DNA from: Terrimicrobiaceae bacterium
GTDB taxonomy: Bacteria; Verrucomicrobiota; Verrucomicrobiia; Chthoniobacterales; Terrimicrobiaceae
DNA length: 34,373 nucleotides
Direction of reading: 5' to 3'
Assembly (NCBI GenBank): GCA_023258235.1
Contig: JALQZP010000005.1
Location: 1 to 34,373 of the forward strand
Shown: positions 16,863 to 17,982 of the stretch, in pieces
Position numbering within the stretch: the stretch's first letter is position 1
Layout: each line of letters starts with the position of its first letter
Program-made: the position numbers and the translations under genes
The notes under the pieces: generated by a model
Told to the model about the DNA's origin: nothing
The model's input: the letters and a program-made list of their open reading frames with translations, nothing else
The model's database searches: none

Positions 16863-17786
16863 TTATCTCTTGGATTGGTGGCCTTCCTGTGCGGCCCAAG
16901 CGATGCGGAACCCGATGGATGTACCGCGTCCGTTCGGATCGTTGGCGTTGCGGGCCGAGGACATCAGTCCGGTGCCGCAGAAATCCCAAGCGCCGCCGCG
17001 CAAGGTGTGGTAGGTGCGAGAAGCGTTGTAGTTGTCCATCACCCATTCCCAGACATTGCCGCTGAGATCGTAGATCCCGAGATCGTTTGGCTGAAAGGCG
17101 TCAACGGGAGAGGTGAATTCGAAATCATCTTTTTTGAGCGACTGGTGGTAGTTGCCAAAGTCCTTGCGGGGCGGGTAGCCCGGCCCCCAAGGGTAGCCCT
17201 GCTTTTGTTTGCTTCGCTCGGCGGGCGTGTCTTCGCCTTCGTTGGGCAGGCCAATGGCGGCGCTCCACTCGAGGTCGCTGAGCAGGCGATAAAACTGGTC
17301 TTGCGGCATGATCCCCTCATCACGCTCCTTGGAAGTGAGCCAGAGGCAATAGTCGATCGCTTCGTGCCAAGAGACGTTGACAACGGGGTGCGTCAAATCG
17401 GTGGGGTTTTTCTGATCCGGAAAAGCGATGTTCTTCGCGGTGCAGTAGAGTTGATAGTCCTGCACCCGTATGGGATGGGTTCCGACGAGGGTTTTGAAGC
17501 GAGGAATCGGAACAAAGGAGAGGCCCAAGCTGTTCACATGCGGCTGCGAGGCGCTCGCGCGCGGCATTGGCGAGGCCACGGCATGGGCCATGTTGGAACT
17601 CACCTGCGCAAATGCCGCAAGCAAACGCCTGCGATCGCCGATGCGGGCGATCCCGAGCTCGATCAGGTCTTTATCGGTGAGATATCCGAGAACAGCATCG
17701 TCTACACCTTCCCTGAAAAAATTTTCAAGGAGGTTCTCGCGCCTTTCCGCTTTGAGAATGGCCTCAAGCTGTAATGTTATTTCAAT
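16863..17786 (-). CDS. SAM (sterile alpha motif) domain fused to SUMF1/FGE-type domain, probable AUU start
   Basis: The ORF track gives 253 aa from a TTG at 17624, but the same frame is open upstream to a TGA at 17792-17790. The extra residues read ENLLENFFREGVDDAVLGYL, TDKDLIELGI and RIGDRRRLLAAFA. This is a SAM (sterile alpha motif) domain, a protein-interaction fold. No ATG, GTG or TTG exists in that stretch. AUU at 17786 has AGGGGG 7 nt upstream on the minus strand, so I propose an AUU start (307 aa). Residues about 85-300 form a formylglycine-generating-enzyme/SUMF1 fold (VNVSWHEAIDYC, YPWGPGYP, GIYDLSGNVWEWV, LRGGAWDF, SIGFRI). The catalytic cysteine pair of true FGE is not present in the segment before GFRI, so a binding or structural role is more likely. 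No signal peptide is seen. It lies downstream of lpxB on the same strand. Confidence 0.75.
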   Translation of the reverse strand: MEITLQLEAILKAERRENLLENFFREGVDDAVLGYLTDKDLIELGIARIGDRRRLLAAFAQVSSNMAHAVASPMPRASASQPHVNSLGLSFVPIPRFKTLVGTHPIRVQDYQLYCTAKNIAFPDQKNPTDLTHPVVNVSWHEAIDYCLWLTSKERDEGIMPQDQFYRLLSDLEWSAAIGLPNEGEDTPAERSKQKQGYPWGPGYPPRKDFGNYHQSLKKDDFEFTSPVDAFQPNDLGIYDLSGNVWEWVMDNYNASRTYHTLRGGAWDFCGTGLMSSARNANDPNGRGTSIGFRIAWAAQEGHQSKR

Positions 17787-17982
17787 AAATCATCCCCCTG
17801 CGTTGTCAGCCACTTAACGCTTTAGCCTATTTGGGGGGCATCATCAAATGGGTTAAAGCTTATTTCTAAATTTAGTAGTTCTATGAAACTAGGAAAAAGC
17901 GCGATTGTCATCAAGCTTTAAACATCCTTCCTTGATTACAATGGAGAGATGGGGCCTTTATTCCCCTCGAAAAAACGATCTA

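Follow-up and report, generated by a model that had tools for sequence, protein, structure and literature searches.

A putative AUU, AUC or AUA start codon conserved in a SAM-FGE fusion gene of a Terrimicrobiaceae genus

The gene for initiation factor IF3, infC, starts with AUU in Escherichia coli and with AUC in Streptomyces. Conserved AUH start codons (AUU, AUC or AUA) have, to our knowledge, been described in very few genes, of which infC is the foremost. In a reconstituted system, AUU read by a CAU anticodon yielded a smaller fraction of full-length product as IF3 rose (PMC10158994). Precedents for control of this kind are the autocontrol of infC by IF3 and the repression of sigR by IF3 (PMC5472188).

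We analyzed a stretch of 34,373 nucleotides from a Terrimicrobiaceae bacterium (contig JALQZP010000005.1; hereafter, the window), in which an earlier note had proposed an AUU start for a gene joining a sterile alpha motif (SAM) domain to a fold like that of the formylglycine-generating enzyme (FGE). The sequence is as that note described: AGGGGG lies 7 nt before the AUU at 17786, an in-frame stop precedes the codon, and the window frame holds no ATG, GTG or TTG between that TGA (17792-17790) and the AUU. The frame runs on the minus strand from 17786 to its stop codon at 16865-16863, and the 307-residue product begins with IEITLQLEAILKAERRENLLENF. When the search for open reading frames was limited to ATG, GTG and TTG, a 253-aa ORF starting at the TTG at 17624 was obtained. 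The features of the locus are as follows.

16863-17786, minus strand: SAM-FGE gene, 307 codons from the predicted ATT start to a TAA stop
17794-17799, minus strand: Shine-Dalgarno (SD) sequence AGGGGG, 7 nt 5' of the ATT; duplex with the anti-SD, -9.6 kcal/mol
17790-17792, minus strand: in-frame TGA stop, codon -2 relative to the ATT
17784-17786, minus strand: predicted ATT start codon; the column is ATT, ATC or ATA in 10/10 orthologues and ATG in 4 paralogues
17782-17793, minus strand: out-of-frame micro-ORF ATG ATT TAT TGA, immediately 3' of the SD, present only in the window and in the sister species L012
17601-17732, minus strand: SAM domain (Pfam PF07647, SAM_2), residues 19-62
17622-17624, minus strand: TTG, the first in-frame canonical start codon, within the SAM domain
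16896-17414, minus strand: FGE-sulfatase-like domain (PF03781), residues 125-297, without the conserved catalytic Cys pair

The search for orthologues covered all 16 genomes of the genus, and 10 orthologues include the N-terminus; an eleventh (L013) is truncated where its contig stops, so its N-terminus is absent from the counts. No orthologue was found outside the genus in the 10 other genomes of the family that were searched. The alignment of homologues upheld the proposed SAM extension: all ten species conserve the N-terminus, I(E/D)ITLQL, from the same column onwards. The codon in this column is most often ATC (five species), with ATA in three and ATT in two. Its first two bases are invariant in the ten species, and the later codons vary mostly at third positions. 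Conservation begins exactly at this ATH codon; of the preceding bases, only those of a G-rich patch at -12 to -9 are conserved. Eight of the ten orthologues have no ATG, GTG or TTG in reach of the ATH codon, and in six the interval between it and the preceding in-frame stop is free of canonical starts. In L020, the only such codon is a TTG 11 codons 5' of the ATH codon; in L018, the 150 bases read contain no stop, the nearest canonical start is at least 35 codons away, and the frame is open far upstream. A canonical codon stands exactly one codon before the ATH in L016 (ATG) and L014 (TTG), and given these two cases the weak start is not indispensable.

The 62%-identical paralogues (L002, L021, L027, and L028) have ATG at exactly the ATH column. 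A midpoint-rooted tree, which does not give the direction of change, separates a clade of the ATG paralogues from the AUH orthologues, which group on the opposite side. Among these orthologues, several changes of the third base have taken place, all of them between T, C, and A and none yielding G; this is weakly suggestive of selection against AUG, the changes being few and not significant alone. Because the known rate of change from AUG to AUU is so low, with one switch among 61,358 reconstructed ancestral AUG starts (PMC5622118), the start-codon pattern of the AUH group is notable.

The SD sequences of the orthologues have a median energy of -6.35 kcal/mol against the anti-SD. For comparison, a set of 157 genes with aligned canonical starts, taken from a relative, had a median of -1.6, and only 8% of them were as strong as -6.35. 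SDs are weak in the ATG paralogues (-1.5 to -2.5 kcal/mol), and the infC genes of the genus have a median of -6.4 kcal/mol. L015 is an exception, an orthologue without a recognisable SD. A strong SD is what a weak yet functional start codon would be expected to need.

For the SAM part, the match to PF07647 has an E-value of 7.3e-5 and 23.3 bits, above the Pfam cut-off of 20.5, and the family profile, compared with PDB sequences, matched the solved SAM domains of Caskin and ANKS6 over residues ~6-69. An AlphaFold2 model built from a 15-row alignment, of low confidence (mean pLDDT 43.5), has five helices in residues 4-65, the SAM part. All 15 substitutions that separate the window from L012 over SAM codons 2-54 are synonymous; in the pooled dN/dS comparison, synonymous sites were saturated. 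These patterns indicate that the SAM part is under purifying selection, and with both Pfam profiles matched, the SAM-FGE fusion read from the window is judged to be real. What did not hold was the view of the fusion as unusual, since several ATG-started fusions occur in the same genus (L002, L021, L026, L027, L028, L035, L036, and L038), where the architecture appears to have expanded. Of these, L026, L035, L036, and L038 are the more distant fusions, likewise ATG-started and in some cases arranged in tandem. FGE-like proteins without a SAM domain, ~48% identical to the FGE part (L023-L034), are present in most genomes of the genus. Our literature search found no paper combining a SAM domain with a formylglycine-generating fold in bacteria, which is not proof of absence.

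Based on the ATG of the paralogues at this column, the boundary of conservation, the substitutions in the SAM codons, and the unusually strong SD, we infer that the AUH codon is the start of the gene, as the earlier note had proposed for the window.

The FGE-like part matches PF03781 with an E-value of 1.3e-27 and 97.5 bits (cut-off 23.3), and its closest solved relative in a search of PDB sequences is SUMF2 (E 7.7e-18), followed by FGE enzymes. Compared with FGE chains, the family alignment contains no conserved Cys after RGG(A/S)W, near the C-terminus, which we take to be the position of the FGE catalytic Cys pair; C270, the sole Cys of the window protein, is substituted in most relatives. 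Because the FGE-like part lacks a conserved Cys pair at the FGE active-site position, formylglycine formation by the SAM-FGE protein is unlikely. The predicted product is probably a non-catalytic FGE-fold protein that is tethered or assembled via its SAM domain. FGE-like domains are also known in retroelement-diversified (DGR) and vWA-ternary conflict systems (PMC7159879). Membership of the SAM-FGE protein in either, as a DGR variable protein or as part of a vWA-ternary system, was considered and rejected, as it has no variable region: its C-terminal part is strongly conserved rather than hypervariable, so the protein is not retroelement-diversified.

The neighbourhood of the SAM-FGE gene is mostly unconserved. 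A gene for a CobW-type GTPase (PF02492, PF07683) lies directly downstream of the gene in two genomes (G001 and G002) and of all four paralogues, at these six loci.

L063:7365-8321, L062:1200-2153, and L069:8433-9359: CobW-type GTPase genes
L070:1470-2396, L072:1099-2025, and L073:4151-5077: CobW-type GTPase genes, remainder of the same six loci

In the window, the gene downstream of SAM-FGE encodes a DUF4159 protein, and a CobW-type GTPase is absent beside it. CobW-type GTPases are a family known for metal chaperones. The arrangement suggests that the CobW-type GTPase and the SAM-FGE protein may form a functional pair, and the adjacent GTPase gene offers a weak lead towards a role in metal handling. 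Many SAM-FGE genes have a YkuD L,D-transpeptidase domain encoded nearby (L064, L065, L067, L069, L070, L072, and L073; 12024-12986 in the window), which is fused to a glycosyltransferase in L065.

The lineage itself appears to initiate at AUH, because infC has such starts throughout the genus and in most of the sampled genomes of the order. It starts with ATT in 16/16 genomes of the genus, and in most of the further genomes its conserved N-terminus has no canonical start, with ATT, ATC or ATA there (L045-L060 and L174-L199 cover the genus and the further genomes of the order). The comparison with infC in the earlier note, which called AUU starts rare and usually regulatory, therefore applies in this genus as well; the codon in the SAM-FGE gene, however, is not a one-off but genus-wide. 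To gauge how common AUH starts are, we surveyed part of the DNA of two relatives, 0.8 Mb from G004 and 1.12 Mb from G006, and obtained 193 pairs of orthologues whose substitutions follow a coding pattern. The results are noisy, and the codon-position pattern was used to filter shadow ORFs and breaks inside genes; the survey did not demand a missing canonical start in both genomes, the gene in G006 being open upstream, and infC lies outside the surveyed G004 stretch. Among the 193 pairs, the SAM-FGE gene was the only one with a conserved coding stretch beginning at AUH before any canonical start, and AUH starts would thus not be a general habit of the lineage. The other matches, sorted by eye, were prfB, breaks within genes, and non-coding or shadow matches. 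The prfB gene (RF2-like; L074-L153, G004:C2, survey ORF 3815; L113, G006:C34, survey ORF 3307) is a frame without a canonical N-terminal start, as expected from its programmed frameshift.

The marks of an infC-type start are found together here: a non-canonical start (8/10 orthologues), its conservation in ten species, and a compensating SD (L015 excepted). Because this layout is that of infC, the gene is most likely expressed at a low level and responsive to IF3, and we consider it probable that the AUU is translated as a conserved, infC-type weak start against which IF3 discriminates. Ordinary fMet-tRNA would initiate translation at the AUU at 17786, where a strong, well-placed SD would keep the 30S subunit in place despite the mismatch between the third base of the start codon and the initiator anticodon. 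Since IF3 rejects such codons, basal output would be low and would rise when IF3 activity falls; orthologues across the genus have kept this layout with AUU, AUC or AUA. Its retention suggests that the weak start may serve to place the gene under translational control. More tentatively, the drifting AUU/AUC/AUA start might wire the SAM-FGE gene to IF3 so that production of the protein occurs mainly under lowered fidelity of initiation or a reduced supply of IF3, a version towards which we lean somewhat less than halfway.

The most serious alternative, although in our judgment an unlikely one, is that the AUH start is real and merely weak, serving low expression without any response to IF3 or regulation. 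The link of this gene to IF3 does come from its likeness to infC, and canonical starts are tolerated one codon upstream in L016 and L014; however, strong SDs are kept alongside the weak codon, as in infC, and an AUG with a weak SD would suffice for low expression, as in the paralogues. The micro-ORF of the window could also be responsible, either through re-initiation after M-I-Y-stop (17793-17782), whose stop overlaps the ATT as ATTGA, or through +1 slippage into the SAM frame. The ATTGA overlap is seen in the window and in L012, but in these two sister species only, while the others conserve the same N-terminus without anything similar, and the ATG of the micro-ORF has no SD spacing; we regard such a route as improbable.

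Starts farther downstream, at the TTG at 17624 or later, would leave a SAM-less protein and an untranslated upstream part. The 253-aa ORF of the canonical-start search and the SAM-less FGE relatives in the genus fit such a start, which is nevertheless very improbable given the 15 synonymous and 0 nonsynonymous differences in codons 2-54 and the amino acids kept in ten species while third bases drift; the TTG at 17624, lying inside the SAM domain, is not a plausible start. Least probable of all is a one-base sequencing or assembly indel concealing an ATG start, a possibility raised with the original observation. The out-of-frame ATG reported then, ending after three codons, does exist (17793-17791, reading M-I-Y-stop) and lies seven bases 5' of the ATT, one base out of frame, and L011/L016 reads ATG ATC GAA at the corresponding place. 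Against this, the same 24 bases, AGGGGGATGATTTATTGAAATAAC, occur in another species with 94% protein identity, whose metagenome was assembled separately (CAMBAQ010000218.1, titled Chthoniobacter flavus) and whose DNA further upstream differs from that of the window. Moreover, most orthologues that start with ATA or ATC show no ATG at this place in any frame, and the SD, which abuts the ATG (0 nt), stands at a suitable distance (7 nt) from the ATT. Because the bases are identical in an independent assembly and most orthologues have no ATG there, an indel is excluded for practical purposes.

If the infC-type reading is true, the SAM-FGE protein would be an output of the state of translation that is hidden by canonical start-codon annotation. 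Annotation with ATG, GTG and TTG only would, in most species, deprive this protein of one of its conserved domains, which hints at a class of truncated annotations. AUU, AUC or AUA kept in ten species, with AUG used by the paralogue, also provides a clean natural comparison for the purpose of such starts.

Among described proteins, the FGE/SUMF1 and SUMF2 family (PF03781) has a clear domain likeness to the SAM-FGE protein, which differs in having no conserved Cys pair and in its N-terminal SAM domain. That SAM domain resembles the eukaryotic ones of Caskin and ANKS6 by profile, but is bacterial and joined to an FGE fold. With respect to its start, the gene resembles Streptomyces sigR (PMC5472188) in lying outside the translation machinery and in having a non-canonical start that canonical-start annotation misplaces; the sigR start is GTC and its control by IF3 was shown experimentally, whereas control by IF3 is predicted from the start layout for the SAM-FGE gene. 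Closest is infC, which likewise combines an AUH start with a strong SD, conserved across species, and the SDs of the two genes are of equal strength in this genus. In contrast to infC, which encodes IF3 and controls itself, the SAM-FGE gene has no known link to translation, and the third base of its start codon drifts among U, C, and A. It appears to be another example of a conserved AUH start, one that extends across the genus, in a gene without a known link to the translation machinery.
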